DNA of 64,000 bases from Klebsiella sp. RIT-PI-d (GTDB lineage Bacteria > Pseudomonadota > Gammaproteobacteria > Enterobacterales > Enterobacteriaceae). The notes under the pieces are model-generated. The model saw only the letters and a program-made list of their open reading frames with translations. It was not told the origin of the DNA and searched no databases. Below are positions 3,226-21,923 of this stretch, piece by piece. The stretch spans positions 248,001-312,000 of the forward strand of contig NZ_LGIT01000009.1 in assembly GCF_001187865.1 (NCBI RefSeq). The letters are read 5' to 3'. The translations under genes and the position numbers were made by a program. Numbering within the stretch: the first letter of the stretch is position 1; every line of letters begins with the position of its first letter.

Positions 3226-3243
3226 TTCCTACGCGTGTAATCC
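3226..3243. promoter_or_regulatory. Candidate EvgA box between hdeD and yfdX
   Basis: TTCCTACGCGTGTAATCC matches the first 15 positions of an 18-base inverted-repeat pattern of the type described for EvgA (TTCYTAC, two to three bases, TGTARGAA). It lies about 100 bases upstream of yfdX and a similar distance upstream of hdeD, so it could serve both divergent genes. Identification rests on similarity to the motif as I recall it. Confidence 0.5.
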
Positions 3244-4021: not shown

Positions 4022-4099
4022 AGTATCGCTCTCGCTGGGTCACTCCTCGTTATGTCGTGTGACCCTGCGAAGATCGCTCTATTTATGAAAGGTACAGCC

Positions 4100-5350: not shown

Positions 5351-5355
5351 TGAGT

Positions 5356-5380
5356 AGAGGAGTCGGTGGCTCCTCTTTCT
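5356..5380 (+). terminator. Attenuator-like hairpin between frc and oxc
   Basis: AGAGGAG (5356-5362) pairs with CTCCTCT (5370-5376) and is followed by TTCTT. It is a probable partial terminator inside the oxalate operon, reducing transcription into oxc. Confidence 0.55.
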
Positions 5381-5404
5381 TGTCGAATATTGGGACACAT
5401 TACT

Positions 5405-7099
5405 ATGTCGGATGAACACGCGCTGACGGACGGTATGCATATTATCGTCGACGCGCTGAAAAAAAATAATATCGAATGTATTTATGGGGTGGTGGGCATT
5501 CCTGTTACGGATATGGCTCGTCATGCTCAGGCAAAAGGTATTCGTTATATTGGCTTTCGTCACGAGCAATCTGCAGGTCACGCTGCTGCCATTCGCGGTT
5601 TTATTACCCAAACGCCGGGCGTTTTCCTGACCGTTTCTGCACCAGGCTTTATGAACGGTCTGGCCGCACTGGCGAATGCCACGGTCAACGGTTTCCCGGT
5701 AATCATGATCAGTGGCTCAAGCGACCGTGCAAAAGTCGACCTGCAGCAGGGCGATTATGAAGAGCTGGATCAGATGAATGCGGCAAAGCCTTACGCAAAA
5801 GCGTCTTATCGGGTTAATCGACCTGAAGATCTGGGTATCGCACTAGCTCGTGCCATTCGTGCCGCCACATCAGGACGGCCGGGAGGCGTTTATCTTGACC
5901 TGACTGCTGAGGTCCTGTCAGCCACCATGAGCATCGATGACGCGGAAAAGAGTATTGTTCAGGTTGAGCCTCTGGCATTAAAGCAGCTCCCGGATGATGC
6001 CTCCATTACGCGTGCACTGTCTCTGCTGGCAAAAGCGGAACGTCCGCTGGTTATTCTGGGGAAAGGCGCGGCATATTCTCAGGCTGATAAGACGATCCGT
6101 GATTTTATCGAAACCACGCAAATCCCTTTCCTGCCCATGTCGATGGCGAAAGGACTGCTGGAAGATACGCATCGGCTTTCGGCGGCGACCGCGCGTTCGT
6201 TTGCCCTGGCAAATGCCGACGTTGTGGTATTAGTTGGTGCGCGTCTCAACTGGCTGTTGAACCACGGCAAAAAAGGATGGGCAGCAGATACGCAGTTTAT
6301 TCAACTGGATATCGAGCCCCAGGAAATAGACAGCAATCGCAAAATTGCCGCACCGGTGGTGGGCGATATTGCCTCTTCAATGCAGCTTCTGCTTTCTGAG
6401 CTGGCACTGCGTCCTTTTATCGCGCCTCTGGTATGGCGCGATATGCTGGATGTCCATAAACAGGCTAATGCCCAGAAAATGGCGTTGAAATTAGACACCG
6501 TGACGGCACCGCTGAACTATTTCAATACGCTGCGGGTGATCGGCGATGTTCTGGCGGACTATCGCGATATTTACCTTGTCAATGAAGGGGCCAATACCCT
6601 CGATAACGCGCGAAACCTTATCAATATGTATAAACCTCGCCGCCGTCTGGACTGCGGTACCTGGGGCGTGATGGGGATTGGTATGGGCTATGCCATTGGC
6701 GCCGCTACCACGACTGGCAAATCGGTGGTGGCCATTGAGGGCGACAGCGCATTTGGCTTTAGCGGCATGGATATCGAAACCATCTGCCGGTACAACCTGC
6801 CGGTAACCGTGATCATTTTCAATAATGACGGCATTTATCGGGGCGATGGTGAAAACCTTAGCGGCAATGGCGATCCTGCTCCGACCGATCTGCTGCGTCA
6901 TGCGCGCTATGACAAAATGATTGAGGCTTTTGGCGGCATCGGCTATCACGCCACCACCGAGAAGGACGTTCGTGCTGCGCTGATTGCCAGTCTTCAGTCC
7001 CGCAAACCGTCGCTTATTAACGTGGTGATCGATCCTGCGGCCGGTACGGAAAGCGGGCATATCACAACGTTAAATCCAAAGCATCTCACCAATCAATAA
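5405..7099 (+). CDS. oxc: Oxalyl-CoA decarboxylase
   Basis: The 564-residue thiamine-diphosphate enzyme converts oxalyl-CoA to formyl-CoA and CO2, consuming a proton. It has the three-domain ThDP fold: an N-terminal pyrimidine-binding domain with the conserved glutamate in GFRHEQSAGHAA, a middle domain, and a C-terminal ThDP/Mg site beginning GDSAFGF and ending in NN about 30 residues later. Length equals that of E. coli Oxc. ATG 5405 was chosen over the in-frame ATG 5366 because it gives the family N-terminus MSDEHALTDGMHIIVDALK. Confidence 0.96.
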   Translation: MSDEHALTDGMHIIVDALKKNNIECIYGVVGIPVTDMARHAQAKGIRYIGFRHEQSAGHAAAIRGFITQTPGVFLTVSAPGFMNGLAALANATVNGFPVIMISGSSDRAKVDLQQGDYEELDQMNAAKPYAKASYRVNRPEDLGIALARAIRAATSGRPGGVYLDLTAEVLSATMSIDDAEKSIVQVEPLALKQLPDDASITRALSLLAKAERPLVILGKGAAYSQADKTIRDFIETTQIPFLPMSMAKGLLEDTHRLSAATARSFALANADVVVLVGARLNWLLNHGKKGWAADTQFIQLDIEPQEIDSNRKIAAPVVGDIASSMQLLLSELALRPFIAPLVWRDMLDVHKQANAQKMALKLDTVTAPLNYFNTLRVIGDVLADYRDIYLVNEGANTLDNARNLINMYKPRRRLDCGTWGVMGIGMGYAIGAATTTGKSVVAIEGDSAFGFSGMDIETICRYNLPVTVIIFNNDGIYRGDGENLSGNGDPAPTDLLRHARYDKMIEAFGGIGYHATTEKDVRAALIASLQSRKPSLINVVIDPAAGTESGHITTLNPKHLTNQ

Positions 7100-7116
7100 G
7101 GCTTTGTCGTCATCTG

Positions 7117-7150
7117 TACCCCCTGCATTTTACCCAGGGGGTATTTAAAG
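7117..7150 (+). terminator. Hairpin between oxc and yfdV
   Basis: TACCCCCTG (7117-7125) pairs perfectly with CAGGGGGTA (7135-7143) and is followed by TTTAAAGG. It resembles a weak intrinsic terminator and would lower expression of yfdV and yfdE relative to frc and oxc. Confidence 0.55.
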
Positions 7151-7161
7151 GATAATTTCCG

Positions 7162-8106
7162 ATGTTTACTTTTTTTACCGGCGATTTGCTGCCAATTATC
7201 GTGATTATGCTGCTGGGATATATCAGCGGTAAACGCCAGGCGTTTAGTGAAGATCAGGCGAGAGCGCTCAACAAGCTGGTGCTGAATTATGCCCTCCCTG
7301 CGGCGCTTTTTGTCTCAATTGCCCGTGCCAATCGTGACATGATTTTTGCTGATACCCGACTGACGCTGATTTCACTGATCGTCATTGTGGGATGTTTTCT
7401 GTTCTCCTGGTTCAGTTGCTACAAGTTCTTTAAACGTACGCATGCGGAAGCGGCGGTGTGTGCGCTGATTGCCGGTTCACCGACCGTCGGCTTTCTTGGC
7501 TTTGCGGTCCTCGATCCTATTTACGGCGCGTCCGTGTCGACCGGGCTGGTGGTTGCCATTATCTCTATTATTGTCAATGCGATAACCATCCCACTCGGGT
7601 TGTATTTGCTCAATCCTTCTGCCGATCAGCAGGGAAAAGGCGCGAATAAATTCAGCGCATTGATTGCCGCGGCGAAAGAGCCTGTGGTATGGGTTCCTGT
7701 CCTGGCAACGCTTGTCGTGCTGGTCGGCATTAAAATTCCGGCGGCCTGGGATCCTTGCTTTAATCTGATCGCTAAATCTAACTCCGGCGTCGCCGTGTTT
7801 GCAGCAGGCCTGACGCTGGCAGCCCACAAGTTTGAGTTCAGCTGGGAAATTGCCTACAACACGTTCCTGAAATTGATCCTGATGCCGCTGGTATTGCTGA
7901 TAGTGGGCGTACTGTTCCATCTTGACGCAGAACAGTTGCAGATGACGGTACTGGTTGGCGCGCTGCCGCCTGCTTTCTCAGGCATTATCATCGCCAGCCG
8001 GTTCCAGATCTACACCCGCGCGGGTACAGCGTCTCTCGCCGTCAGCGTTATCGGCTTTATGATCACCGCACCAATGTGGATTTACATCAGCCGATTGGTC
8101 TCCTGA
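7162..8106 (+). CDS. yfdV: Auxin-efflux-carrier family transporter YfdV
   Basis: The 314-residue integral membrane protein has about ten hydrophobic segments and belongs to the auxin efflux carrier (AEC) family. It has the same length as E. coli YfdV. The position between oxc and yfdE suggests that it moves oxalate or a related dicarboxylate/formate across the inner membrane, but substrate has not been shown by sequence. AAGGATAATTTCCG precedes its ATG. Confidence 0.92.
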
Positions 8107-8173
8107 GTCGTTTTATATGTTGATGGCAAAGGGCGCGTCGTGCATTTTGCCATCCGTGAGTGAGTACAAGTTA

Positions 8174-9316
8174 ATGAGTGAAGCAAAAATTCCCGGCCCT
8201 TTCAGTGACCTGCTGGTGATTGATATGACGCACGTGCTGAATGGTCCTTTTGGCACGCAAATTTTGTGCGATCTGGGTGCGCGCGTTGTCAAAATCGAGC
8301 CGCCGGGCCACGGCGATGACACCCGACTGTTAGGCCCTTTCCTGAACGATCAGTCGTTATATTACAGCTTCGTCAATCGGGGAAAGGAGAGTGTGGTGCT
8401 CAACCTGAAAACCGAACACGATCGGCAGATATTCATCAATATGCTGAAAAAAGCCGACGTGCTGGCGGAAAATTTTCGCCCGGGCACGCTGGAAAAACTG
8501 GGCTTTTCCTGGGAGACGCTACAGGAGATTAACCCCCGTTTGATCTACGCCTCCTCCTCGGGATTTGGTCATACCGGTCCGTTAAAAGAGGCCTCTGCTT
8601 ACGACACGATTATTCAGGGCATGAGCGGCATTATGATGGAGACGGGCTTTCCCGATGGCCCTGGTGTGCGGGTGGGAACTTCTATTTCCGATCTGTGCGC
8701 GGGGGTGTATCTTTTCTGCGGCATCGCCAGCGCGCTGTACGCACGGCAGAAAACCGGCCGTGGGGCGCATGTAGATATTGCCATGTTCGACTCTACGCTC
8801 ACTTTTCTTGAGCATGGAATGATGAGTTACATTGCCACTCATAAGACGCCAGCGCGTCTGGGCAATCGTCATCCGTATATGGCGCCGTTTGACGTTTTTG
8901 CCACGGCAGATAAACCTGTCAGCATCTGCTGCGGCAACGACAGACTGTTTGCCGCGCTGTGTGATGCCCTGCAACGGCCGGATATGGCCAGCGATCCGCG
9001 CTATACCACTAATGTGCTGCGGGTGGAGAATCAGGCGGTGCTAAAAGCGGAGATCGAAGCCGTACTGTCCAGTGAAACCGCCGCCACCTGGCTCGCCCGT
9101 ATCGGTGAGGCCGGTGTACCTGTAGCGCCGATACTTAGCGTTGCCGAAGCGATTGAATTACCGCAGACGCAGGCCAGAAACATGATGATAGAAGCCGGCG
9201 GCATCCGGATGCCTGGCAACCCCATTAAAATCAGCGGCTACCCGGATCCGCATGTTCGTCCAGGTGCCGCCACGCTGGATCAGCATGGCGAGGCATTACG
9301 CCGGGAATTTGCCTGA
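8174..9316 (+). CDS. yfdE: Acetyl-CoA:oxalate CoA-transferase YfdE
   Basis: The 380-residue class III CoA-transferase resembles Frc but is closer to E. coli YfdE throughout (SDLLVIDMTHVLNGPFGTQ, LAENFRPGTLEKLGFSWETLQ, GNRHPYMAPFDVF). The catalytic aspartate is D173 in VGTSISDLCAG. YfdE uses acetyl-CoA as CoA donor and oxalate as acceptor, offering a formyl-CoA-independent entry of oxalate. The frame opens at 8117, but the ATG at 8174 gives the expected N-terminus and length. It ends convergently with evgS. Confidence 0.94.
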   Translation: MSEAKIPGPFSDLLVIDMTHVLNGPFGTQILCDLGARVVKIEPPGHGDDTRLLGPFLNDQSLYYSFVNRGKESVVLNLKTEHDRQIFINMLKKADVLAENFRPGTLEKLGFSWETLQEINPRLIYASSSGFGHTGPLKEASAYDTIIQGMSGIMMETGFPDGPGVRVGTSISDLCAGVYLFCGIASALYARQKTGRGAHVDIAMFDSTLTFLEHGMMSYIATHKTPARLGNRHPYMAPFDVFATADKPVSICCGNDRLFAALCDALQRPDMASDPRYTTNVLRVENQAVLKAEIEAVLSSETAATWLARIGEAGVPVAPILSVAEAIELPQTQARNMMIEAGGIRMPGNPIKISGYPDPHVRPGAATLDQHGEALRREFA

Positions 9317-9362: not shown

Positions 9363-12300
9363 TTAGTCCCCGGCATGTTTAAGGTAGTGCGCAATTTCCC
9401 GTTCAATTTCTGCTGAACAGACTTCCAGCTTATTGAGCAACTGAAGGGAAGGCTGAATATCAGGCGGCACAGGCAGCGATTCAAGCTGGTGGCAAATATC
9501 CCGCAGCGCGACCAGATTAAGGATCCCTGCTGAACCGTGGATGCGATGAATATGCCTTTTGAACGTGTGCCAGTCCTGACGATCCCAGGTTTGTCGTGCC
9601 ATGGTTAAATCATCACGGCAGGCGTCGCTAAAGGTGGTCAGTATTTCGCGTATTAACTCAGGGTCGCTTTCGGTATTTGCCTGCAGTGCCTGAAGATCAA
9701 GATGATGGTAATCGACAACCAACGGCGTCGTCCCGCAAAGCTGGCTCAGGTGGCGCTTGAGGATATCAAGCGTCAGCGGTTTAAAGAGGCACAGATCCAT
9801 GCCTGCGTTAAGCCCGCGTTCGCGTTCATGAGTCTGCGCGTTGGCGGTTAATCCCCAGATGGTGAGTGGGGTATGGTTCTGACGCAGAGCCTGCGTCAAT
9901 TCAATACCGTCCAGGCGAGGCATGTTGACATCGGTGATAAGCAAATCAAAGTGCTGCTGACTAACTTTATCGAGCGCATCCTGACCATCGCAGGCTTCTG
10001 TGACGTCATAGCCTAGCGTGCTGAGTTGCCGCTTAAGCAGCAGGCGATTAGTGGGATGATCGTCAGCGACAAGAATACGCAGCCCCGCGGGCAGTGGATA
10101 AGCGGTTTCTTGATCGTCTGCCACACAGTCTTTACGGGATGTGACGGCTACCGGAAGGGTCAAGGTGAAGGTCGAGCCGATACCCGGCTGGCTTTCTACG
10201 CTAAGTTCACCCTGCATTTTGCTCACCAGCTGTTTGCAGATCAGCAATCCCAGGCCTGAGCCCGTTTGCTGGCGTCCGCACTGTGTCTGGCTGTAATGTT
10301 GAAACAGAAGCTTCTGCTCTTGAGGACTGATCCCGCAGCCTGAATCTGCCACCTCAATGACCAGCTTTGCCATATCGTTACCTCCTACAATCAGCGCAGC
10401 ATTGAGTTTGACAACACCGGCATGCGTAAACTTCAGCGCATTACTGAGCAGGTTGGTAAGCACTTGCTTAATCGCCTGCGGATCAATCATTACTGCGCTG
10501 TGCGGATCGATTGCAAGATCGATCGTTAATGCGATGTTCTTTTTAGCCGCCAGCGTATGCCACGCCCGATGGATCCCCGTAAGGTGGCGGGTAATATCAA
10601 CCCATTCAGGCTGTAATTGATATTTGCCGGACTCAATTTTGTCGACATCAAGGATCTCGCCAATCAGGTCGAGCAGAGAGTGTCCCGTTGAATAGGCCAG
10701 TTTGATGGCCTCAGCTTTCTGTTCCTGGGTTTGTGTCTGACTCGCGAGCAGCTCAAGGAAGCCCATAATTGAACTGACCGGGGTTCTTATCTCATGGCTC
10801 ATGGTTGCCAGAAACTGACTCTTGGCGAGCGTCGCATTAATAGCTTTGTTTTTTTCAATCTCCAGCGCGTGGATAAGCGAACGCGTTTCGGTAATATCTT
10901 CCCAGCCGCAAATAAAGACTTTGTCGGCGCTGGCGGGCAGATCGCACACCGTTAGCCAGTGCTGAATGTAGCGCGTTGTAGTGCCGTTACTGATCTCCAT
11001 TTCACGCGTATTTATTGGGCGATAGCCGTCCGCCTCCAGCCTCATTTCGGCAAATTCGCGTAGTACGGTTGAAAAGGGCGACTGCGCATCGGTCAACGGG
11101 AGTGCGGCGGTCGCGTAGTATTCCGGGGTAAAATACTGCGAAAAGGCGCTATTGTGACTCCTGATATGCCCCTGCGGATCGACCACATAGCTCGGGTTTG
11201 GCAGAGAGTCGGACAGCGCTTTACGAAACGAAATCTGATTTTCAAGATCGCCCTGTATGGCCTTACGACGGTTAACTTCGCGTAACAGATAAAATCCCCA
11301 GAGCAGGCTACTGACGATCAGGGCCACTGACAGGCCGGTAACTATGTAAAACTGCTGGCTATAAAGATCCCACGTATCAATGGTAACGTTAGGCATCTTG
11401 GTCCATTTTTCAGTTAAACGAAGCAGTTCGCTCGGCGGCAAATTATTAAATGCCTTATCAATAATACTTTTCAGTTCCGGCTGATCCCTGGGCAGCGCAA
11501 ACGTAATTGCCGCGCGCGGTGTATGCCGCAGGCGATAGAAGACCTGGGTATCCGGGTAGTAATGGTCAAGCATATATTGCGCCGTTGGCTGAGTGGTCAC
11601 CAGCGCGTCCAGTGTTCCCTCCTGAACCTGATGAAACGCCGCGCTGGCATTTTTAATCTCTATCCATTCCACTTCGGGGTAGCGCGCTTTCAGCGTGGCA
11701 TCAAGACCGTAATAAGGCGGCAAACCGACCTTCATTCCCGGTTTCAGTTTTTGCACTTTCATCAGGTCTTTTTTCATGACGTAGACATAGGGCGTCATCA
11801 TCAACGTGTCAGTAAAGGCAACCTGATGTTCACGTTGTTCTGAATAAATGGCTCCGGGAAAAATATCCCACTTTCCATCCGGATTAAGTTCCATGCCCGA
11901 AGGGCCATTGGGCGAAGAAACCGGAACGAACTTCATACCGGTCTGCAGTTCGATAATATTCAGCAGATCGCCCATGATGCCCCGCGGCGTACCCTGCTCA
12001 TCAGTCATTGAAAACGGCGGATGAAAGGAGTTAACCAGCACCTTGACCGTGGGATGATTCTTGATCCATTTTTTTTCCTGAGCGGTTAATGCCAGCGGTT
12101 GATTAACAAATCCCAAATTGCCGACATTAAGCCAGTTCTGCATCACATCCCTTCTGACCTCATTGGTCAGGCTGTTGACAAATCTGTCGAGAATAGAAGA
12201 CAGCACGGATGTCTCTTTACGGGTAAAAAAGAAGTTGAGCTGGCACGGGCAATCATAATATTTGATAGCGTTCAGCGAATGGGTAAAATAGCGTGAGATC

Positions 12301-12956
12301 AACGTACTGCTAATAATATTACTGCCGACAAAATACTGATTATCGCCAGAAGCAATTGACGCCAGCGCCTCGTAATGATCGTCATAATCAACGATGGTAG
12401 CATTGGGAAATGAACGGAAAATCATGGTGCTGGCCGGGTAGCCATTAACCCGCGCAATGCTCACCGGTTTAGTGGTGCTGATCGGGCGCATGGTGTTATT
12501 AACCGTCGTGATCAGCACCGGGAAGGTGGTGATCAGCGGTTGAGACACTTTAAAGATTGTCTCCTTCGGCCGGGCGTTAAGCAGATCGGTCAACATGATA
12601 TCCACCTCGCCTTTTTCGAGGGCGTTGGCGGCATCCACTGCAGTTGGATAGACCCGCAGAACAATATTAACTTTCAGATTTTGTTGCAGTAACCCAAGAT
12701 AATCAGCGTTAATCCCTTTAGCCTGCTGGCCAGGTTCAGTCTGTAAAAGGGCGGTGTGCATCGTACGATCGATACCGATGTAAAAATGCTTTTTGCTGTT
12801 CAGCCAGCGAAGCTCGTCATCGGTTAAACGTAAATCGTCAAGCTCGACGCTGCCGTTGGTGAACTGAATAGCGTGGTCAGTCCAGGATAAGGCCGTATGG
12901 CCTTGCAGAGAGAAAAACAGAAAAAAGGGGATGAGAATATAATTGAGAAAATGCAT
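9363..12956 (-). CDS. evgS: Hybrid sensor histidine kinase EvgS
   Basis: The 1197-residue protein has exactly the length of E. coli EvgS and the same domain order: signal sequence, two periplasmic type-3 solute-binding domains (about residues 55-270 and 300-520), a transmembrane helix near residue 540, a PAS segment, a HisKA domain with the phosphorylated histidine in ATMSHEIRTP near residue 720, HATPase_c (GSGLGLLICKQLV), a receiver domain (DLLITDVNMPRLDG) and a C-terminal HPt domain (HRIHGSAGIL). It senses mild acid and redox state and phosphorelays to EvgA, which starts the acid-resistance cascade. Its ATG lies 4 bases after evgA. Confidence 0.97.
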   Translation of the reverse strand: MHFLNYILIPFFLFFSLQGHTALSWTDHAIQFTNGSVELDDLRLTDDELRWLNSKKHFYIGIDRTMHTALLQTEPGQQAKGINADYLGLLQQNLKVNIVLRVYPTAVDAANALEKGEVDIMLTDLLNARPKETIFKVSQPLITTFPVLITTVNNTMRPISTTKPVSIARVNGYPASTMIFRSFPNATIVDYDDHYEALASIASGDNQYFVGSNIISSTLISRYFTHSLNAIKYYDCPCQLNFFFTRKETSVLSSILDRFVNSLTNEVRRDVMQNWLNVGNLGFVNQPLALTAQEKKWIKNHPTVKVLVNSFHPPFSMTDEQGTPRGIMGDLLNIIELQTGMKFVPVSSPNGPSGMELNPDGKWDIFPGAIYSEQREHQVAFTDTLMMTPYVYVMKKDLMKVQKLKPGMKVGLPPYYGLDATLKARYPEVEWIEIKNASAAFHQVQEGTLDALVTTQPTAQYMLDHYYPDTQVFYRLRHTPRAAITFALPRDQPELKSIIDKAFNNLPPSELLRLTEKWTKMPNVTIDTWDLYSQQFYIVTGLSVALIVSSLLWGFYLLREVNRRKAIQGDLENQISFRKALSDSLPNPSYVVDPQGHIRSHNSAFSQYFTPEYYATAALPLTDAQSPFSTVLREFAEMRLEADGYRPINTREMEISNGTTTRYIQHWLTVCDLPASADKVFICGWEDITETRSLIHALEIEKNKAINATLAKSQFLATMSHEIRTPVSSIMGFLELLASQTQTQEQKAEAIKLAYSTGHSLLDLIGEILDVDKIESGKYQLQPEWVDITRHLTGIHRAWHTLAAKKNIALTIDLAIDPHSAVMIDPQAIKQVLTNLLSNALKFTHAGVVKLNAALIVGGNDMAKLVIEVADSGCGISPQEQKLLFQHYSQTQCGRQQTGSGLGLLICKQLVSKMQGELSVESQPGIGSTFTLTLPVAVTSRKDCVADDQETAYPLPAGLRILVADDHPTNRLLLKRQLSTLGYDVTEACDGQDALDKVSQQHFDLLITDVNMPRLDGIELTQALRQNHTPLTIWGLTANAQTHERERGLNAGMDLCLFKPLTLDILKRHLSQLCGTTPLVVDYHHLDLQALQANTESDPELIREILTTFSDACRDDLTMARQTWDRQDWHTFKRHIHRIHGSAGILNLVALRDICHQLESLPVPPDIQPSLQLLNKLEVCSAEIEREIAHYLKHAGD

Positions 12957-12960
12957 CCGG

Positions 12961-13575
12961 TTACCAGATTTTATTGTTTTGTGCGAAAGTAAAAAGGCTC
13001 ATCAATGATTTGCATTGAAGTTTATCCATTAACCGGCTTTTATAGGTGCTAACGGTTTTATTACTGATAAACATTTTCTCTGCAATGGCATTGTTATCAT
13101 CGCCATCAAGAATGAAGCGCAGCACGGTGATTTCTTGCCGTGACAACGAGTCCAGTTTTTGTTGGTCGGATGTCAGCCGTCCGGTAAACCGTTCCATGCT
13201 GAAAGGAAAGTAACTATAGCCATTTCGCGCAGCCTCAATGGCCGCAATAATATTGTTAACGCCCTCTTTTTTACTGACAAATCCATTGGCGCCAGCCTCT
13301 GCGCTGTAGCGACCGTAAAAATAATCATTCTTAGCTGAAACAATAATGATAATCCCGGTGTAATGGCGCTTGCGCAGCATTTCGAGAACCTGGATACCGT
13401 TATGGCCCGGAATATCAACATCAATGATCATAATATCAGGCTGCAACTTTTCCATACTCTGTACCGCTTGAGAACCATCACTCAATTCGGCAACAATTTC
13501 CACTGAGTGCTTACGCAGCAGATTGCGAATAGCCGTAATGGCGAGCGGGTGATCGTCAATGATAATTGCTTTCAT
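12961..13575 (-). CDS. evgA: NarL-type response regulator EvgA
   Basis: The 204-residue regulator has a receiver domain (acidic pair D7/D8, phosphoacceptor D52 in IIDVDIPGHNG) and a LuxR-type helix-turn-helix near residues 145-195 (NAIAEKMFISNKTVSTYKSR). In E. coli, phosphorylated EvgA activates emrKY, the yfdX/frc operons and, through SafA and YdeO, the gad/hde acid-resistance genes. It forms an operon with evgS and is divergent from emrK. Here many of its expected targets lie within 18 kb. Confidence 0.97.
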   Translation of the reverse strand: MKAIIIDDHPLAITAIRNLLRKHSVEIVAELSDGSQAVQSMEKLQPDIMIIDVDIPGHNGIQVLEMLRKRHYTGIIIIVSAKNDYFYGRYSAEAGANGFVSKKEGVNNIIAAIEAARNGYSYFPFSMERFTGRLTSDQQKLDSLSRQEITVLRFILDGDDNNAIAEKMFISNKTVSTYKSRLMDKLQCKSLMSLFTFAQNNKIW

Positions 13576-13990
13576 TTCTAATGCCTTATTCCGCTAATAA
13601 TATTTTTTGCTGTGAATACAGTTGTCGACAGAGAAACCAGGTTTAAATGATGATCAATTTTACGTCAGGCGCTGAATGTAGTGCAAAAAGAATTCAATAT
13701 TGAGAGCCCATATTAAAAGGGAGAAACTAAACAAAACGATAACGAATGCAAGGTGTCTAAATTATGATTTATAATCAATGGCTTATGATTTTTTCTGACG
13801 GCGTAAAACTACAGTTGTAGGAATTGTATGGCAACAATATCAGGAAAATCTACTATTAAGTTTCTGATAATTTTTTATCCTGTGCACAGTCGAAATATCC
13901 TGCGGTGCATCATTTGTGTTAATAACATATTACGTTTTCGTAAATGTTATGGTGAGATGTTAAAATATAAGCTTAATATGAGAAATTAAC
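13576..13990. promoter_or_regulatory. evgA-emrK divergent control region
   Basis: This 415-base AT-rich gap holds no convincing gene. It contains the EvgA-type box at 13806-13823. At 13922-13950 there is an inverted repeat, ATAACAT...TTACG against CGTAA...ATGTTAT, with a TTTT loop. That repeat lies in the presumed emrK leader and could form a hairpin or a second regulator site. Confidence 0.6.
13806..13823. promoter_or_regulatory. EvgA box upstream of emrK
   Basis: AAACTACAGTTGTAGGAA contains the inverted repeat CTACA/TGTAG and the TGTAGGAA half-site of the EvgA motif. It sits 168 bases upstream of emrK. emrKY is a direct EvgA target in E. coli. Confidence 0.65.
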
Positions 13991-15154
13991 GTGGAACGGT
14001 CTGAAGCGTCAGAAAAGAAAAAATCACGAAAGAAATATTTTATTGTTTTTTTAGGTATCGTACTTCCGGTATTTATTGGCCTTTTTTTCTACTGGGATCT
14101 CGTCCTGAGTCGCCAGGTTAATACTGATGATGCCTATGTGACGGGCAATATGAATGCCGTCTCATCACAAGTTAACGGTAGCGTGACGACAATTAATTAC
14201 ACCGATACCGAGTTCGTGCGCAAGGGGGATATCGTTATCGGGCTGGATAAAACAGATTCAATCATTGCCTTCAACCAGGCCAAAAACAATCTGGCCAATA
14301 CGGTACGTGAAATGCGCAAGCTATATGTTCTGGATTCTCAGTATCTGGCCAATGTTAACGCGGCAAAGATCCAGGCAAAGCAGGCATCAGAAGATTATCA
14401 GAGACGGCAACGCCTCGCGGCGAGTGGCGTTATCGCACGCGAAGATCTTGAACATGCAAAAGACAGTGTAATAAGCAGTAATGCCGCACTGGATGCCGCC
14501 GTACAGGCCTACAAAGCCAACAAAACGCTCATTATGAATACCTCGCTTGCACAACAGCCGCAGGTGCTGCAGGCGGCCGATAATATGAAGCAGGCGTGGC
14601 TTGCGCTTCAAAGAACGGATATCCGTAGCCCGGTAACCGGCTACGTGGCACAGCGTAATGTTCAGGTTGGCGAGACAATTACCCCGGCTCAGCCGCTTAT
14701 GGCAGTAGTGCCCGCGCAACAAATGTGGGTGAATGCCAATTTTAAAGAAACGCAGCTGACCAATGTCCGTATCGGCCAGCCGGTCACGCTTACCAGCGAA
14801 CTGTATGGCGATAAAGTGATTTTTCATGGTCATGTTAAAGGCATCAATATGGGGACCGGCAATGCGTTTGCACTGCTGCCTTCGCAAAATGCTTCTGGCA
14901 ACTGGATTAAAGTCGTTCAGCGCGTGCCGGTAAACGTGGTGCTGGATGAAAATGAACTGAGCCAGCATCCGCTGCGTATTGGTTTGTCAATGAATGCCAC
15001 TATTGATATTGGCGCAAGCCATCGCAAAGCCTTACCGGAACTGTCAACCGTTGTGACCAGCTCTCCGGCTTACGTCAGCGATGCACTTGTCATTGATACC
15101 ACGCCGGTAGAGATGGAGATCGCCAGAATCATTAATCTGAATGGTCAGCCCTGA
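13991..15154 (+). CDS. emrK: Multidrug efflux membrane-fusion protein EmrK
   Basis: The 387-residue HlyD-family adaptor has one N-terminal transmembrane helix (about residues 17-37), a lipoyl/beta-barrel region (NTDDAYVTGNMNAVSSQVNG near residue 45, SPVTGYVAQRNVQVGE near residue 215) and a central helical hairpin. It couples the EmrY pump to an outer-membrane channel, normally TolC. Its stop overlaps the emrY start by one base. It is expected to be activated by EvgA. Confidence 0.95.
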   Translation: MERSEASEKKKSRKKYFIVFLGIVLPVFIGLFFYWDLVLSRQVNTDDAYVTGNMNAVSSQVNGSVTTINYTDTEFVRKGDIVIGLDKTDSIIAFNQAKNNLANTVREMRKLYVLDSQYLANVNAAKIQAKQASEDYQRRQRLAASGVIAREDLEHAKDSVISSNAALDAAVQAYKANKTLIMNTSLAQQPQVLQAADNMKQAWLALQRTDIRSPVTGYVAQRNVQVGETITPAQPLMAVVPAQQMWVNANFKETQLTNVRIGQPVTLTSELYGDKVIFHGHVKGINMGTGNAFALLPSQNASGNWIKVVQRVPVNVVLDENELSQHPLRIGLSMNATIDIGASHRKALPELSTVVTSSPAYVSDALVIDTTPVEMEIARIINLNGQP

Positions 15155-16701
15155 TGGAGAGCGTAAAATCATCACCGGAGCCACTGCGCGGTGCAATGTT
15201 GATTTTCATGACTTTTGCGCTCTCAATGGCGACCTTCATGCAAATGCTGGACTCGACGATTTCCAATGTGGCGATCCCGACTATTTCAGGTTTTTTGGGG
15301 GCTTCAACGGATGAAGGAACGTGGGTTATCACCTCTTTTGGGGTAGCCAATGCGATATCAATTCCTTTAACCGGACGTCTGGCTCAGCGTTTTGGTGAGT
15401 TACGCCTTTTTTTAACCTCAGTGGCTCTTTTTTCGCTGGCGTCACTGGCCTGTGGCTGTTCAACCAGCCTTGATATGCTGATTTTCTTCAGGGTAGTGCA
15501 GGGTGCAATGGCGGGGCCACTCGTCCCGCTGTCACAAAGCCTGCTGCTGAGAAATTATCCACCGGAAAAGCGGACGTTTGCTCTGGCAATGTGGTCAATG
15601 ACCGTCATTATTGCCCCCATTTGTGGGCCCATTTTAGGCGGATATATTTGCGATAATTTTAATTGGGGATGGATATTTTTTATTAATGTTCCAATGGGGA
15701 TTATCGCCGTCACACTCTCGGCAACCTTATTAAAAGGCAGGGAGACAGAGACGCAATCGGTGAAAATGAATTACGTTGGTTTAGTACTATTGGTGCTTGG
15801 CGTCGGTGCGTTACAACTGATGCTAGATAAAGGCAAAGATTTAGACTGGTTTAACTCTAATACTATTTTGATCCTGGCGGTGGTTTCGATTCTGGCCCTG
15901 GTATCGCTAATTATCTGGGAGTCAACCGATGAGCATCCCATTCTCGATCTTAATTTGTTTAAATCACGGAACTTTACTATTGGGATAATTTGCACCACCT
16001 GCGCTTTTCTTTTTTACTCCGGTGCAATTGTGCTAATGCCGCAGTTACTTCAGGAAACGATGGGATACAATGCGATATGGGCTGGCCTGGCATATGCGCC
16101 GATAGGATTAATGCCGCTGATTTTGTCGCCGATCATTGGCTTCTACGGTAATAAAATTGATATGCGCATTTTGGTAACGTTCAGTTTTGTTGTCTATGCC
16201 ATTTGTTACTACTGGCGATCGGTCACTTTCACGACGGGTATCGACTTTGTCGGGATTATTAGCCCGCAAATATTGCAGGGATGTGCGGTAGCCTGTTTTT
16301 TCCTTCCGCTCACGACGATTACGCTTTCAGGATTGCCGGATGATAAATTTGCTAATGCATCCAGTATGAGCAACTTTTTCCGTACGTTAGCCGGCTCAGT
16401 CGGGACGTCGCTGACGATGACCCTGTGGAGTCGCTGGGAATCAGGCCAGCATGGGCTGTTAACCGGACCTATAAACAAGTTTAATCCAATATTCAATGAA
16501 TATTATCAAAAGGCAGGGCAGTCAGGATTTTCTTTCTCGCAAGTGCTTGAGCAGGTAAATAATATGATTACTCAACAGGGGATGCTTATTTCTGCTAATG
16601 AAATATTTCGTCTTTCATCAATAGCATTTGTGATGCTCACTATTCTGGTGTGGTTTGCCAGACCTCCCTTTACCCAGGGGGGAATGACTAACGCTGCCTG
16701 A
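15154..16701 (+). CDS. emrY: MFS multidrug efflux pump EmrY
   Basis: The 515-residue protein has the 14 transmembrane segments of the DHA2 drug:H+ antiporter family, with LDSTISNVAIPTISG in helix 1 and GPILGGYICDNFNWGWIFFINVP in helix 5 (motif C and adjacent loop). The ATG overlaps the emrK TGA (TGATG), indicating translational coupling. E. coli EmrKY exports drugs and bile salts and is induced through EvgAS. Confidence 0.95.
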   Translation: MESVKSSPEPLRGAMLIFMTFALSMATFMQMLDSTISNVAIPTISGFLGASTDEGTWVITSFGVANAISIPLTGRLAQRFGELRLFLTSVALFSLASLACGCSTSLDMLIFFRVVQGAMAGPLVPLSQSLLLRNYPPEKRTFALAMWSMTVIIAPICGPILGGYICDNFNWGWIFFINVPMGIIAVTLSATLLKGRETETQSVKMNYVGLVLLVLGVGALQLMLDKGKDLDWFNSNTILILAVVSILALVSLIIWESTDEHPILDLNLFKSRNFTIGIICTTCAFLFYSGAIVLMPQLLQETMGYNAIWAGLAYAPIGLMPLILSPIIGFYGNKIDMRILVTFSFVVYAICYYWRSVTFTTGIDFVGIISPQILQGCAVACFFLPLTTITLSGLPDDKFANASSMSNFFRTLAGSVGTSLTMTLWSRWESGQHGLLTGPINKFNPIFNEYYQKAGQSGFSFSQVLEQVNNMITQQGMLISANEIFRLSSIAFVMLTILVWFARPPFTQGGMTNAA

Positions 16702-16795: not shown

Positions 16796-17392
16796 ATGAG
16801 AAAATTTATGTTAAACAATAACGTTTTTAAAAAAACTCTGGCGAGCTTAGCCGTCGTTTCCACACTTTTACTGTCTGGCTGTGCCACAATACCTGACAGT
16901 ATTAAAGGCGCAAATGTTGCCGTTAGCTCCGCGTCATATGAGCAGATCGCCATTAGCCCGGAGAGTTATCAGGGACAGGATGTACGTGTAGGCGGTAAGG
17001 TTATTAACGTCATCAATCTTAAGTCCTCGACTATCCTTGAGCTGGCCGTATTGCCGTTGAATGAGTACGCCAGACCGAAAATTCAGTCTCCTTACCAGGG
17101 GCGTGTACTGGTTTACACCAATAACTTCCTTGACCCTGAGAACTTCCGCAGCCGGTATGTTACCGTGCTCGGCAAAGTAGAAGGAACAGAATATCAGTTG
17201 ATTGGTAAGCAGCCCTACAAATTCCTGAAAATGTCCATGCTTGGCTATCAAACATGGCAGCTTGAAAATAGCTTTGTGCCAGAGAACGGCTGGGTTTACG
17301 CATGGTCTTCAGACTGGGGTATTGCACCACCTCCAGGATATCTCTATACCCCGTCAGAAGTGGTAAATGAGAACTCTTACCTGGAGCCATAA
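16796..17392 (+). CDS. slp: Slp/YeaY family outer-membrane lipoprotein
   Basis: The product is 198 residues with a lipobox LLSG-C29 and the family core GGKVINVINLKSSTILELAVLPLN, YQGRVLVYTN and FLDPENFRSRYVTVLGKVEG. This fits Slp, an acid- and starvation-induced outer-membrane lipoprotein that in E. coli lies in the acid fitness island with hdeABD; YeaY is the paralogue. The C-terminus differs from Slp, so the exact orthologue is uncertain. A second in-frame ATG at 16808 is an alternative start. It follows emrY in the same direction and ends at a strong terminator. Confidence 0.82.
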   Translation: MRKFMLNNNVFKKTLASLAVVSTLLLSGCATIPDSIKGANVAVSSASYEQIAISPESYQGQDVRVGGKVINVINLKSSTILELAVLPLNEYARPKIQSPYQGRVLVYTNNFLDPENFRSRYVTVLGKVEGTEYQLIGKQPYKFLKMSMLGYQTWQLENSFVPENGWVYAWSSDWGIAPPPGYLYTPSEVVNENSYLEP

Positions 17393-17702: not shown

Positions 17703-18812
17703 ATGAAAAAGTTATTAATTACAGGTGTTACAGGATTTCTGGGTGGAGCAGTACTGGAAAAAATCATTAATAATAATGAAGATGTAGATCTATTATTGCT
17801 GGTTCGCGCCAGCGATCGCAGCGCCGCGCTGGAGCGTGTAAAAGATAATATGCGCAAGTTCAATGTCGACGAAGCAAAATTGCAAAATCTGAATACCTCG
17901 AACATTTTATTGGGCGATCTGGCTACACCTTCCACATTCCTGAATTCTGTTGAACTTGATGATGTAACACACGTTATCAACTGCGCCGCTGTAGCATCAT
18001 TCGGCAATAATCCGCTGATCAAAAAAGTGAATGTCGAAGGCACCTTTGAATTTGCTAAACGCATGAATGATGTTAAAACGCTGCAGCGCTTTTTACACGT
18101 GGGTACCGCAATGTCTTGTACTCCGAAGCCGGATTCACTGGTGCCGGAAAGTGAAAAATTCCCGCAGAATGCCGAGCATCTGGTGGAATATACCCATTCT
18201 AAATCGACCATTGAGCGTTTAATGCGTGAAAATTGTCCGGATCTGCCGCTGGCGATTGCCAGACCGTCGATTGTTGTTGGACATACTCAGTACGGATGCC
18301 AGCCGTCGAGCAGTATTTTTTGGGTCTTCCGGATGGGATTAATGCTGCAAAAGTTCATGTGTTCACTGGATGATAAAATTGATGTTATTCCCGTCGACTA
18401 TTGTGCCAACGCGCTATTGATGCTTCTTGAAAGCGATCTAAAACAAGGCGAAGTAGTGCACATTTCTGCCGGGGAAGAAAACAGCGTGAAATTTGCGGAC
18501 ATCGATCGGGCAATGGCTAAAGCGCTTGAGGAACAGCCGATTGCAGAACAGTATACTCAGGTAGATTATGAGGCACTGGTTAAAATGCGTCATCAACTCA
18601 ATTCAATCTTTGGTCCGTGTAACGAAAGACTGATGTTAAGAGCGATGCGCTTATACGGTTCATTTGCCATGATGAATGTGCGCTTTTGCAATGATAAATT
18701 ATTGAGTCTGGGAATGGGTAAACCACCGCGTTTCACCGACTATTTATCTCGCTGTGTGCAAACCACCCGTGGGTTGTCCATCCCTCAGCAAATGGCTGTT
18801 GATTTTAAATAA
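17703..18812 (+). CDS. SDR-family NAD(P)-dependent reductase, thioester-reductase-like
   Basis: This 369-residue extended short-chain dehydrogenase has the nucleotide-binding motif TGVTGFLGG (residues 7-15) and the catalytic Y163-x3-K167 (YTHSK). The pattern GDL..., VINCAA...F, NVEGT and HVGTA is typical of the NAD_binding_4 / male-sterility group. Members reduce acyl-CoA or carrier-bound thioesters to aldehydes, or act on steroid-like and other substrates. No carrier-protein or adenylation domain is fused. It is AT-richer than the flanking core genes and lies between slp and the antiporter/decarboxylase pair. Specific substrate is unknown. Confidence 0.75.
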   Translation: MKKLLITGVTGFLGGAVLEKIINNNEDVDLLLLVRASDRSAALERVKDNMRKFNVDEAKLQNLNTSNILLGDLATPSTFLNSVELDDVTHVINCAAVASFGNNPLIKKVNVEGTFEFAKRMNDVKTLQRFLHVGTAMSCTPKPDSLVPESEKFPQNAEHLVEYTHSKSTIERLMRENCPDLPLAIARPSIVVGHTQYGCQPSSSIFWVFRMGLMLQKFMCSLDDKIDVIPVDYCANALLMLLESDLKQGEVVHISAGEENSVKFADIDRAMAKALEEQPIAEQYTQVDYEALVKMRHQLNSIFGPCNERLMLRAMRLYGSFAMMNVRFCNDKLLSLGMGKPPRFTDYLSRCVQTTRGLSIPQQMAVDFK

Positions 18813-18947: not shown

Positions 18948-18965
18948 ATCTTACTCGTGTAGGAA
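18948..18965. promoter_or_regulatory. Candidate EvgA box upstream of antiporter gene
   Basis: ATCTTACTCGTGTAGGAA agrees with the EvgA-type pattern (TTCYTAC, spacer, TGTARGAA) at 16 of 18 positions, as good as or better than the boxes at emrK and yfdX in this window. It lies 132 bases before the start of the antiporter gene. It suggests acid-stress control by the neighbouring EvgAS system, but this is inference. Confidence 0.55.
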
Positions 18966-19096
18966 TAGTAATACATAAATAGCTGCATGCTCTGATAACG
19001 TTTTTTATGGAAACTGATAATATCAGTAGCTAATAAATTATTTACCAAAGCAGCTATACATAACGCTATTCTATTACCTTTATAAGTGAATTAATA

Positions 19097-20584
19097 ATGG
19101 AAAATAAAAAGCCTAAGGCTACTTCAGCTGGTCATCAGCTGGGTATCCTGGCGATGACGCTATTAGTCGTCAGCGCCATGTTCGGTGGGGGTATATTTAA
19201 TATTCCACAAAATATGTCGCAGTCCGCGGCACTCGGCGCGATTATTATCGCGTGGATAGTTACCGCGCTAGGTATTTTCTTTCTGGCAAAAACATTTCAG
19301 ATCCTTTCCAGTGTAAAACCTGAAATGAAGTCAGGCATCTATATGTACTCCAGAGCGGGATTCGGCAAACTGGTCGGGTTTCTCGTGGCCTGGGGCTACT
19401 GGATGTCCACTGCCTTTGGTAACGTCGGCTATGCCGTTCTTTTGATGGATGCACTGAACTACTTTTTCCCACCGTGGTTTAAGGGAGGAAATACCTGGCA
19501 GGCAGTCGCGTTAGCCTCTGTTTGTATTTGGGGAATGAGTTTTATGGTCATTCGGGGCGTAAAAGCGGCAACCGTACTGAATAATATCGGTACCATTGCT
19601 AAATTTGTTCCCGTCCTTATCTTTATTGCGATCGCGCTGTTTTACGCCATTGAATATCATCATTTCTCCATTGATTTTTGGGGCAATATGAAATCCAACG
19701 CGCTGCATGATAAACCGTTGGGTAGCGTCTTTGACCAGATTAAAAGTACCATGCTGGTGACGCTATGGATGTATATCGGTATTGAAGGCGCGGTTGTACT
19801 TTCCGATAAGTCGGATGCTAAAACCGTCGGTAAGGCGACAATCTTTGGTTTTATCATCACCACCATTCTGTATGTTGCCGTCTCTGTTTTGCCGTACGGA
19901 TTTTTCTCTCAAGGCGAACTGGCCACCATGTCACCGCCTTCCACCGCGGCGATCCTGTCACAACTGGTAGGACACTGGGGTGAGATCATGATCAACGTCG
20001 GGGTCATCATCGCGCTGCTCTCCTCCTGGCTGGTATGGACCATGCTGGTAGCGGAACTGCCCTGGGCATGTGCAAAAGATGGTGCATTTCCAAAAGTATT
20101 CGCTAAAACCAACAGCGCGGGTGTTGCCAACGTTTCATTATGGACATCCACTGTCGTCATGCAGCTGGCGATGCTGCTGGTGTATTTCTCAAATAATGCC
20201 TGGAATGTAATGCTGTCAATTACCGGCGTTATTCTGTTGCCAGCCTATATCGGTTCATCTGCATATTTGTGGCGACTGATATTCACTAAACAGTACCCGA
20301 TGAAAGCGGCGTATGGTGCCACTACGGCGCTCCTGACAAGTATTATTGCAACCGTTTATGGCTTTTGGTTAATTTACGCTGCTGGCTTGTCCTATATTCT
20401 GGTGGGCTGCGTAATCTATACCATCGGTTTACTGGTTTTCTATAAAGCCAGAAAAGAAGAATCGCCAGATGAGCCTGCATTTACACGTAGCGAATTTATT
20501 ATCAGTGTAGTTATGGTGGCTGTAGCTATTATTTCACTGGTAATGCTTTTCAACGGCATGCTCCCGGAAATCTATTCATTCTAA
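19097..20584 (+). CDS. APC-superfamily amino acid antiporter
   Basis: The 495-residue protein has twelve or more hydrophobic segments and the basic amino acid/polyamine antiporter (APA) signature near the N-terminus: SAMFGGGIFNIPQNM is the substrate-binding glycine-rich break of helix 1, and MKSGIYMYSRAGFGKLVGF follows. GadC, AdiC, CadB and ArcD are in the same superfamily; none matches closely enough to name it. It lies 28 bases ahead of the PsiD-like decarboxylase, the arrangement of an amino acid/amine exchanger with its decarboxylase. It probably imports the amino acid and exports the amine. An EvgA-type box lies upstream. Confidence 0.85.
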   Translation: MENKKPKATSAGHQLGILAMTLLVVSAMFGGGIFNIPQNMSQSAALGAIIIAWIVTALGIFFLAKTFQILSSVKPEMKSGIYMYSRAGFGKLVGFLVAWGYWMSTAFGNVGYAVLLMDALNYFFPPWFKGGNTWQAVALASVCIWGMSFMVIRGVKAATVLNNIGTIAKFVPVLIFIAIALFYAIEYHHFSIDFWGNMKSNALHDKPLGSVFDQIKSTMLVTLWMYIGIEGAVVLSDKSDAKTVGKATIFGFIITTILYVAVSVLPYGFFSQGELATMSPPSTAAILSQLVGHWGEIMINVGVIIALLSSWLVWTMLVAELPWACAKDGAFPKVFAKTNSAGVANVSLWTSTVVMQLAMLLVYFSNNAWNVMLSITGVILLPAYIGSSAYLWRLIFTKQYPMKAAYGATTALLTSIIATVYGFWLIYAAGLSYILVGCVIYTIGLLVFYKARKEESPDEPAFTRSEFIISVVMVAVAIISLVMLFNGMLPEIYSF

Positions 20585-20612
20585 GTTAAAAATTAATTAA
20601 ATTGAGGATATT

Positions 20613-21881
20613 ATGACAGACCAATCTTTGCCCGCTAACAATACCTATATCACCGGTAAGTGGATGCCTTCAGATGAGCAGACGCTGGCATTCTGGCTGA
20701 AAAAAATAATGAAAGAAGAAGCGTGTTCAACGCGCCCGCTATTACCCGTCATTCAGGAGTTTAAGGACTTTATTGAAAGTGATCCGATCATCTTCATGTA
20801 CTTTAATGAAATGTTTGAAGAAGTTCCGCATCGCCTGAAACATTCACCGGCAAATCTGCCTCAGGTTCGCGACTATGAGCACATGCTGCAGTTGATGAAT
20901 GTTATTATGACGCATGCACCAGAATTTGATGAGACCGGGCTGGTAGGCTTTCCTTTTAACGCTATTTTTAACTGGTCAATGGCCACTGAAAATGGCTGGA
21001 GCGCTTTTCTTAACGAAAAAATCAATGCGCATTTGAAAAAAATCCTCAATGAGTGGGCGGTATTTCTGCAGTCTCCAGAGAGCGCTAAGGTCCTGAATGA
21101 TCATCCGAAAAACGGCTGGTTTGGCGAAAGTGCGCGCAAAGCGATGCCAACGTTTGTTGACGATTTCCAGTGCGATCCGACGAAGCCACATTACGGTTTC
21201 ACCTCATGGGACGATTTCTTTACCCGTCGTTTCCGCGACGGCGTACGTCCTGTCGCATCGCCGGAAGATGATAGTGTTATCATTAATGCCTGTGAATCAG
21301 CGCCGTATCGTCTGGTCACTGATGTTAAACCCGTTGATAAATTCTGGCTGAAAGCACAGCCTTACTCACTGAATTTTATGATGGACAATGACGCGATGGC
21401 TGCCCATTTCGAGGGCGGTACGGTTTATCAGGCATTCCTGAGTGCGCTGAGCTACCATCGCTGGCATGCGCCGGTGTCCGGACGCATCGTTAAAACGAAA
21501 ATTATTGACGGCACTTATTATTCAGAAGCCCTGTCTCAGGGGCGTGACGACTCAGGCCCGAATGCTTCTCAGGGATACATTACTGAAGTGGCGACGCGAG
21601 GGTTAATTTTCATTGAAGCCGACAATAAAGACATCGGTCTGATGTGTTTTATGGCTGTCGGGATGGCGGAAGTCTCTACCTGTGACATTCGCGTTTTCGA
21701 AGGACAGCACGTTAAGAAAGGCGATGAGCTGGGTATGTTCCACTTTGGTGGCTCTACTCACTGCCTGTTCTTCTCTAAAGATGTCTCACTGGATTTTGAT
21801 TTGCATGACCAGGTTCCGGGGCTGGAAAGTCATAATATTCCGGTTAATGCAAAATTAGCGACGGTCAAAGCGAAAGACTGA
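20613..21881 (+). CDS. PsiD-like pyruvoyl-dependent amino acid decarboxylase
   Basis: The 422-residue protein belongs to the phosphatidylserine decarboxylase fold. It has the extra N-terminal PSDC-type domain (about residues 40-170) seen in the fungal tryptophan decarboxylase PsiD. The C-terminal catalytic domain carries YHRWHAPVSG (281-290), matching the YHRxHxP motif of the family, and the self-cleavage site GGST at 379-382, where S381 would become the pyruvoyl group; classic membrane Psd has LGST. It lacks a membrane anchor. These features and the adjacent amino acid antiporter point to a soluble amino acid decarboxylase, perhaps for aromatic substrates, not phospholipid synthesis. Confidence 0.78.
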   Translation: MTDQSLPANNTYITGKWMPSDEQTLAFWLKKIMKEEACSTRPLLPVIQEFKDFIESDPIIFMYFNEMFEEVPHRLKHSPANLPQVRDYEHMLQLMNVIMTHAPEFDETGLVGFPFNAIFNWSMATENGWSAFLNEKINAHLKKILNEWAVFLQSPESAKVLNDHPKNGWFGESARKAMPTFVDDFQCDPTKPHYGFTSWDDFFTRRFRDGVRPVASPEDDSVIINACESAPYRLVTDVKPVDKFWLKAQPYSLNFMMDNDAMAAHFEGGTVYQAFLSALSYHRWHAPVSGRIVKTKIIDGTYYSEALSQGRDDSGPNASQGYITEVATRGLIFIEADNKDIGLMCFMAVGMAEVSTCDIRVFEGQHVKKGDELGMFHFGGSTHCLFFSKDVSLDFDLHDQVPGLESHNIPVNAKLATVKAKD

Positions 21882-21897
21882 CGTTAATCGGGTTAAT

Positions 21898-21923
21898 GGC
21901 CAGCCTGTGCTGGCCTTCTTTTT
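21898..21923 (+). terminator. Intrinsic terminator after the decarboxylase
   Basis: GGCCAGC (21898-21904) pairs with GCTGGCC (21909-21915) around a four-base loop and is followed by TTCTTTTT. It ends the antiporter-decarboxylase transcript before the convergent acetyltransferase gene. Confidence 0.85.

Follow-up and report, generated by a model that had tools for sequence, protein, structure and literature searches.

A stretch of 64,000 nucleotides from Klebsiella sp. RIT-PI-d (contig NZ_LGIT01000009.1, positions 248,001 to 312,000; the window, to which coordinates refer unless a locus is named) carries an APC antiporter gene followed by the gene of a decarboxylase from the phosphatidylserine decarboxylase (PSD) family. 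These two genes probably constitute an acid-resistance operon, in which a pyruvoyl-dependent L-arginine decarboxylase and an arginine/agmatine exchanger would act under EvgA, much like the AdiA/AdiC system (AR3) but with another enzyme. On sensing mild acid, EvgS would activate EvgA, and EvgA would bind at a predicted box at 18948-18965. The decarboxylase would cut itself at S381 to form its pyruvoyl cofactor and would convert L-arginine to agmatine, using one cytoplasmic proton per turn. The antiporter would then swap external arginine for internal agmatine, each exchange removing a positive charge, as in AdiA/AdiC, which is based on pyridoxal phosphate (PLP). Acid resistance of the amino-acid-dependent kind allows enteric bacteria to get through the stomach and to survive in plant tissue and acidic food.

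The gene pair, its conservation and its likely substrate

Both genes lie on the + strand and are separated by 28 bases. This gap, together with a single terminator, is consistent with co-transcription. The layout had been proposed in a first-pass annotation of the DNA, and the open reading frames and the hairpin at 21898-21915 agree with it:

19097-20584, + strand: APC antiporter of the basic amino acid/polyamine group (495 amino acids; TIGR00905), predicted arginine/agmatine exchanger
20613-21881, + strand: PSD-family decarboxylase (422 amino acids; PF12588 and PF02666; match to 9jer), predicted pyruvoyl-dependent L-arginine decarboxylase
21453-21473, + strand: YHRWHAP motif, residues 281-287, read from the sequence
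21747-21758, + strand: GGST self-processing site, residues 379-382, read from the sequence, with S381 as predicted pyruvoyl precursor
21898-21915, + strand: terminator-like hairpin with a T-rich tail, of the intrinsic type, 3' of the decarboxylase gene

The decarboxylase matches PF12588 (PSDC) with 172 bits at residues 45-178 (cut-off 23.4) and PF02666 (PS_Dcarbxylase) with 126 bits at residues 200-395 (cut-off 22). A Pfam search at E 0.001 reports only these two domains, and the PvlArgDC domain was not found by it. In an alignment of 68 sequences, Y281, H282, R283, W284 and P287 of YHRWHAP are invariant, as are G379, G380, S381 and T382 of GGST; since GGST begins at residue 379, the processing serine would be S381. 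The highest 19-residue hydropathy mean is 1.5 for this protein, whereas the antiporter reaches 3.1. The PSDC domain, the two motifs (beginning at residues 281 and 379) and the lack of a membrane anchor, all claimed in the first-pass annotation, are thus confirmed.

To assess conservation of the pair, which the same annotation had named as a check, we compared 76 decarboxylase rows from 75 loci (designated L). Matches below 250 bits were dropped: those of L052, L059, L060 and L084, a fragment at L061, and the 33% identical second decarboxylase of L054. Fifteen rows at 66% identity or more correspond to 14 genes at 13 loci, since L083 and L099 are the same place and L078 carries two genes. An antiporter gene stands directly upstream, on the same strand and at a distance of 21-156 bases, of 11 of these 14 genes (in L063, L003, L078 with both genes and two antiporters, L079, L004, L088, L082, L081, L080 and L005). 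The three others are the gene of L054, which is cut by the contig end, with an antiporter 5 kb off beside the second, 33% identical decarboxylase; that of L083, which has none; and that of L006, where a PLP-type AdiA-like gene lies in between. The paired loci are not independent events, because many were found with the window protein and some are kin (two Erwinia, others of the order). Among the 61 less similar rows a single one, L066 on a Photobacterium damselae plasmid, has an adjoining antiporter.

At that locus (L066, 2405-5267) the antiporter is 69% identical to that of the window and the decarboxylase only 48%, the latter grouping with other Vibrionaceae; a partner swap is possible. The two decarboxylase genes of L078 (3186-8894) lie end to end with 208 bases between them; PotE and aguBA accompany one of them, an antiporter of the window type the other.

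The neighbours of the relatives point to arginine as the substrate. aguA, encoding agmatine deiminase, exceeds its NCBIfam cut-off in L078, L080, L088 and L054, and aguB, encoding N-carbamoylputrescine amidase, does so in these four and in L005; one or both genes are therefore present at five of the 13 loci whose decarboxylase is at least 66% identical. In L088 the order aguB-aguA-antiporter-decarboxylase runs along one strand, with an antiporter of the window type (69% identical to that of the window) and a decarboxylase of 68% identity. L078 and L080 show the same gene order with PotE as the antiporter. An enzyme that supplies AguA with its substrate would produce agmatine, so arginine is the substrate to be expected. 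The 61 less similar rows, with flanks that vary and some short loci, yielded no relative of aguA or aguB.

Further neighbours were seen at other loci. In L054 (4298-5752) a second PSD-like protein, the 33% identical one, lies between aguA and the antiporter. A PF04371 protein of the peptidyl-arginine deiminase type is a neighbour of the decarboxylase in Pseudoalteromonas/Parabeggiatoa loci (L018, 6466-10776; L019; L050; L012, 2525-5852). In L018 and L012, the two of these four that were scanned, no NCBIfam model matched it at E 1e-10, so it was not counted as aguA, and a C69 dipeptidase is also found near the decarboxylase.

The antiporter of the window scores 488 bits with TIGR00905, the model of basic amino acid/polyamine antiporters (cut-off 409). 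The other 13 NCBIfam models listed for it all score below their own cut-offs, among them those of AdiC (139 of 574 bits), of TyrP (24 of 630) and TIGR03810, which covers the arginine-ornithine exchangers within this group (477 of 591). Four scanned partners of the window type (L003, L066, L082, L088) likewise exceed the TIGR00905 cut-off, and the PotE partners of L005, L078 and L080 score 563-602 bits, over both cut-offs (409 and 560). Residues Y93, N101, W202, E208, W293 and Y365 of AdiC, which we take to be arginine-binding or gating positions, are kept in the window antiporter and in the nine other antiporters of this type that occur in pairs. All ten differ from AdiC at positions 26, 96, 97, 104, 297, 357 and 361; position 22 is A in the window type and in the AdiC chain compared, and N in a second AdiC chain. 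This pattern fits a basic amino acid rather than one exact substrate.

The best PDB sequence match of the decarboxylase is 9jer (261 bits), followed by PsiD, the Psilocybe tryptophan decarboxylase (257 bits). The PDB titles describe 9jer as the arginine decarboxylase of Aspergillus oryzae and 9jf5 as this enzyme with arginine bound; the identity of 9jer came up in a fold search only after arginine had been inferred from gene context. The A. oryzae enzyme resembles the window protein over its full length in sequence and in fold, with 39% identity over 419 columns that include the N-terminal GxWMP segment and the GGS site. PsiD is 42% identical over 359 columns, a figure that does not decide tryptophan activity. 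In the tree, which left out L004, L054, L063 and L082, a 34-row clade (support 100/100) unites the window decarboxylase with the other linked members present, except L006 and L066.

Predicted EvgA boxes and the acid-response island

Control by EvgA was examined with a motif search, run without a preset motif, of five E. coli K-12 promoters (emrK, yfdX, safA, ydeP and frc), all of which we take to be EvgA-regulated. The best shared 18-mer, found in all five, is an inverted repeat of approximately TTCYTACA-NN-TGTARGAA; this discovery step was run without a null. Passages of PMC8174306 report binding of EvgA to the emrKY promoter, and ydeP, safA and ydeO are named together with EvgS in passages of PMC4283999. 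The EvgA matrix was built from the K-12 sites alone, the window sequence being unseen in training, and K-12 sites left out of training score 18.6 to 24.4 bits. Its three best sites in the window are as follows:

18948-18965, no strand assigned: predicted EvgA box, from 149 to 132 bases upstream of the start codon (ATG) of the antiporter gene (18.6 bits, best in the 64 kb)
13806-13823, no strand assigned: predicted EvgA box between evgA and emrK (15.3 bits, second best in the window)
3226-3243, no strand assigned: predicted EvgA box upstream of yfdX (13.5 bits, third best in the window)

The top score in 40 Markov copies of the window was 17.7 bits, no site of 18.5 bits or more occurred in 6.0 million bases of simulated sequence, and none of 500 promoter shuffles matched the box before the antiporter. 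The site upstream of yfdX is weak alone, because chance alone would give 0.29 sites of at least 13.4 bits per 64 kb.

In the relatives, sites were scored over the 350 bases upstream of the antiporter gene. A box was found there in L081 (21.8 bits; 0 of 500 shuffles as good), in L063 (14.0 bits; 3 of 500) and in L078 (12.6 bits; 3 of 500); the best site is at most 1.9 bits in L003, L066, L082 and L088. The genomes of L078, L080, L081 and L079 contain an evgA relative (88% identical to that of the window in L078); one is annotated on plasmid pUPC1 (L063), and one was recovered by BLAST for L004. None was found at E 1e-30 in the genomes of L082 and L088. For the window-type antiporter, box and evgA thus occur together in four lineages (18.6, 14.0, 12.6 and 21.8 bits), an association that fails in Erwinia. 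The match of the box sequence suggests that EvgA may control the pair.

The pair is the last operon of an acid-response island, the remaining genes of which lie upstream on both strands:

2166-2468, - strand: HdeA/HdeB-family acid chaperone (PF06411, 73 bits)
2517-3113, - strand: hdeD-like DUF308 membrane protein (PF03729)
3346-3978, + strand: yfdX (PF10938, 130 bits)
4052-9316, + strand: frc, oxc, yfdV and yfdE-like genes, the oxalate arm (CoA_transf_3, TPP enzyme, Mem_trans, CoA_transf_3; K-12 order)
9363-12956, - strand: evgS-like sensor kinase (SBP_bac_3, HisKA, HATPase, receiver, Hpt; order as in K-12 evgS)
12961-13575, - strand: evgA-like response regulator (Response_reg and GerE; 59% identical to the annotated pUPC1 evgA)
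13991-15154, + strand: emrK-like adaptor (HlyD-type domains, gene order)
15154-16701, + strand: emrY-like MFS pump (TIGR00711, 578 bits)
16796-17392, + strand: slp-like outer membrane lipoprotein (TIGR00752, 172 bits; cut-off 88)
17703-18812, + strand: NAD_binding_4/thioester-reductase-like protein (PF07993, 126 bits)

The evgA and evgS genes, beside which the pair had been placed in the first-pass annotation, are indeed in the same island, 5.5 kb upstream. The island recurs in two Erwinia loci (L004, L079) and in part on pUPC1, and evgA adjoins the pair in L081. No BLAST relative of the thioester-reductase-like protein, which lies between slp and the antiporter, was found in the compared stretches of the other islands. 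The acid role suggested earlier for the pair therefore gains support, at the level of sequence, from the content of the island, the predicted EvgA site and the conserved pairing.

Competing readings

An ornithine or lysine decarboxylase, with an antiporter that swaps ornithine for putrescine or lysine for cadaverine, would also provide acid resistance. This seems fairly unlikely: three of the 11 adjoining antiporters are PotE and the group of the window antiporter includes arginine-ornithine exchangers (the TIGR03810 score being under its cut-off), yet the clusters hold aguA and aguB, whose products use agmatine and N-carbamoylputrescine as substrates, and the top PDB sequence match is an arginine decarboxylase. 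PotE in such clusters may itself swap arginine or ornithine for putrescine made by AguAB. The first-pass annotation had named tryptamine, tyramine and phenethylamine as possible products. A PsiD-like aromatic amino acid decarboxylase that makes tryptamine or a related amine is, in our view, very improbable, because the partner antiporters are either of the basic amino acid/polyamine group or PotE (and the TyrP model scores far below its cut-off), because aguA and aguB are neighbours in relatives, and because the match to the A. oryzae arginine decarboxylase, top of the PDB list, also spans the N-terminal GxWMP segment. PsiD stands on a very long tree branch (3.88), although the A. oryzae chain does too (3.07).

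Two further readings leave the substrate or the role elsewhere. The relatives of the decarboxylase bear the database name 'phosphatidylserine decarboxylase family protein' and share the catalytic domain of that family, but a soluble phosphatidylserine decarboxylase of phospholipid metabolism is hardly credible here: the best score against the PSD equivalog is 104.5 of 371 bits, and this role was rejected, the seven decarboxylase models listed all scoring far under their cut-offs. An arginine decarboxylase serving polyamine supply, whose place in the acid island would be incidental, we regard as unlikely. The aguBA operons of relatives do lead to putrescine, and the pair is kept in genomes without an evgA relative (G383, G641); against this stand the box before the antiporter in four evgA-bearing lineages, the island common to Erwinia and partly to pUPC1, and the speA gene that the genome already has.

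Several observations weigh against an EvgA-controlled arginine decarboxylase and its exchanger, the interpretation that we prefer. The sequence lead of 9jer over PsiD is narrow (261 against 257 bits), the fold of the decarboxylase is slightly closer to PsiD than to the A. oryzae enzyme, and a comparison of conserved columns between the A. oryzae enzyme and PsiD (22 against 18, p 0.64) favours neither. The Erwinia loci L004 and L079 have no box at the antiporter (5.1 and 5.4 bits, equalled by 98 and 82 of 500 shuffles), an EvgA box standing before yfdX instead, and no box was found at the PotE-type pairs of L078 and L080 (genomes G145 and G371), though these genomes have evgA relatives. The idea that the decarboxylase is the only source of agmatine was rejected, speA being over its cut-off in all eight genomes checked; G641 is the only one of the eight without PF01276 decarboxylases.

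Spread and comparison with known systems

Neither AdiA nor AdiC exceeds its cut-off in the genome of Klebsiella sp. RIT-PI-d (best 739 of 1167 and 160 of 574 bits, respectively). The genome does encode an LdcC-type lysine decarboxylase (1504 bits; cut-off 968), an ornithine decarboxylase (1380 bits; cut-off 794) and a glutamate decarboxylase (632 bits; cut-off 380). Another of its loci (L095, 2533-8044; G000:C9:1179032-1184543) has the layout antiporter, AdiA-like PLP decarboxylase (the 739-bit match) and antiporter. Taken as a control, this cluster proved to have an EvgA-like box (20.1 bits) that lies 190 bases upstream of its first antiporter gene. EvgA would therefore drive two basic-amino-acid decarboxylase clusters here, one PLP-dependent and one pyruvoyl-dependent.

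The same layout, antiporter, Orn/Lys/Arg decarboxylase and antiporter, is seen in E. coli MCJCHV-1 (L100, 4590-10176). Here an EvgA-like site scoring 17.2 bits precedes the cluster, and one of 17.6 bits lies elsewhere in the stretch. The blastn query was matched in 493 of 5426 E. coli genomes; the matches are short among the 20 listed, and one genome was examined.

Surveys that count the genome of origin found the decarboxylase in one of four genomes of the genus, in 7 of 392 family genomes and in 10 of 394 from the order (both at E 1e-100), in 1 of 369 of the class (E 1e-60) and in 2 of 60 relatives (E 1e-40; its own genome and G017, 37% identical). Such a sporadic spread is consistent with horizontal transfer. 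Plasmid pUPC1 of Enterobacter cancerogenus, whose record is typed IncF and conjugative, carries a decarboxylase relative of 82% identity together with evgA and hdeD-, yfdX- and emrKY-like genes, and the island seems to move or to be lost often. On pUPC1 (L063, 1279-2700) evgA is followed by an IS-like transposase reading frame, recognized by eye, and the annotation of the examined stretch shows no evgS.

The relatives of the decarboxylase at E 0.001 number at least 7,202 proteins among 8,000 candidates scored; the 120 matches listed are all at least 62% identical. It is perhaps an even bet that a large share of the bacterial PSDC-domain proteins named as members of the phosphatidylserine decarboxylase family are arginine decarboxylases, and that one enterobacterial branch, joined to a basic amino acid antiporter under EvgA, makes up a horizontally mobile, PLP-free and arginine-dependent acid resistance that is plasmid-borne in Enterobacter cancerogenus.

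To our knowledge, the enterobacterial pairs GadB/GadC, AdiA/AdiC, CadA/CadB and SpeF/PotE all use PLP enzymes. The A. oryzae arginine decarboxylase, for which Murakami et al. 2024 (Appl Environ Microbiol, doi 10.1128/aem.00294-24) is reportedly the original paper, shares with the window protein the GxWMP N-terminus, the PSD-type catalytic region and the GGS site; it is fungal, however, and neither an antiporter operon nor EvgA control was seen for it. Passages of PMC12283126 count this enzyme among three convergent pyruvoyl arginine decarboxylases. AdiA/AdiC resembles the pair in its predicted reaction, antiporter logic and acid control. AdiA, however, is a PLP enzyme of another fold, and the window antiporter belongs to the TIGR00905/ArcD-like branch. 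Chlamydial AaxB, which we take to be a member of another pyruvoyl family, differs from the window decarboxylase, with its 422 amino acids and with PF12588 and PF02666 as the only Pfam domains reported. Passages of PMC2720952 describe AaxB/AaxC as a pyruvoyl arginine decarboxylase with an arginine:agmatine antiporter, AaxB having about 195 residues. PsiD differs at the bacterial-conserved N116, W121, W245, Y272 and Q320 and agrees at other conserved columns. Its substrate is aromatic, and we know of no antiporter for it.

The bacterial ornithine/arginine decarboxylases derived from AdoMetDC, as passages of PMC10407285 present them, are likewise pyruvoyl enzymes that came to use a basic amino acid, but from another protein family; a term search of that text found no mention of phosphatidylserine, PSD or Aspergillus in it. 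Neither a bacterial PSD-family arginine decarboxylase nor the combination of a PSD-family decarboxylase with an antiporter in enterobacteria was found in open PubMed Central, which misses most subscription papers. The first-pass annotation had suggested that the pair would be a new pyruvoyl/antiporter type of acid resistance: a PSD-superfamily enzyme does stand with an antiporter in an acid island, but AaxB/AaxC is a precedent for such a pair outside the enterobacteria. Each element thus has its precedent, in the A. oryzae enzyme, in AaxB/AaxC or in AdiA/AdiC, and the enterobacterial combination would be the new part. If correct, our interpretation would make the PSD-family pyruvoyl enzyme a separate origin of arginine-dependent acid-resistance physiology, would correct the name of a very large protein group, and would tie a fungal arginine decarboxylase to a bacterial operon.

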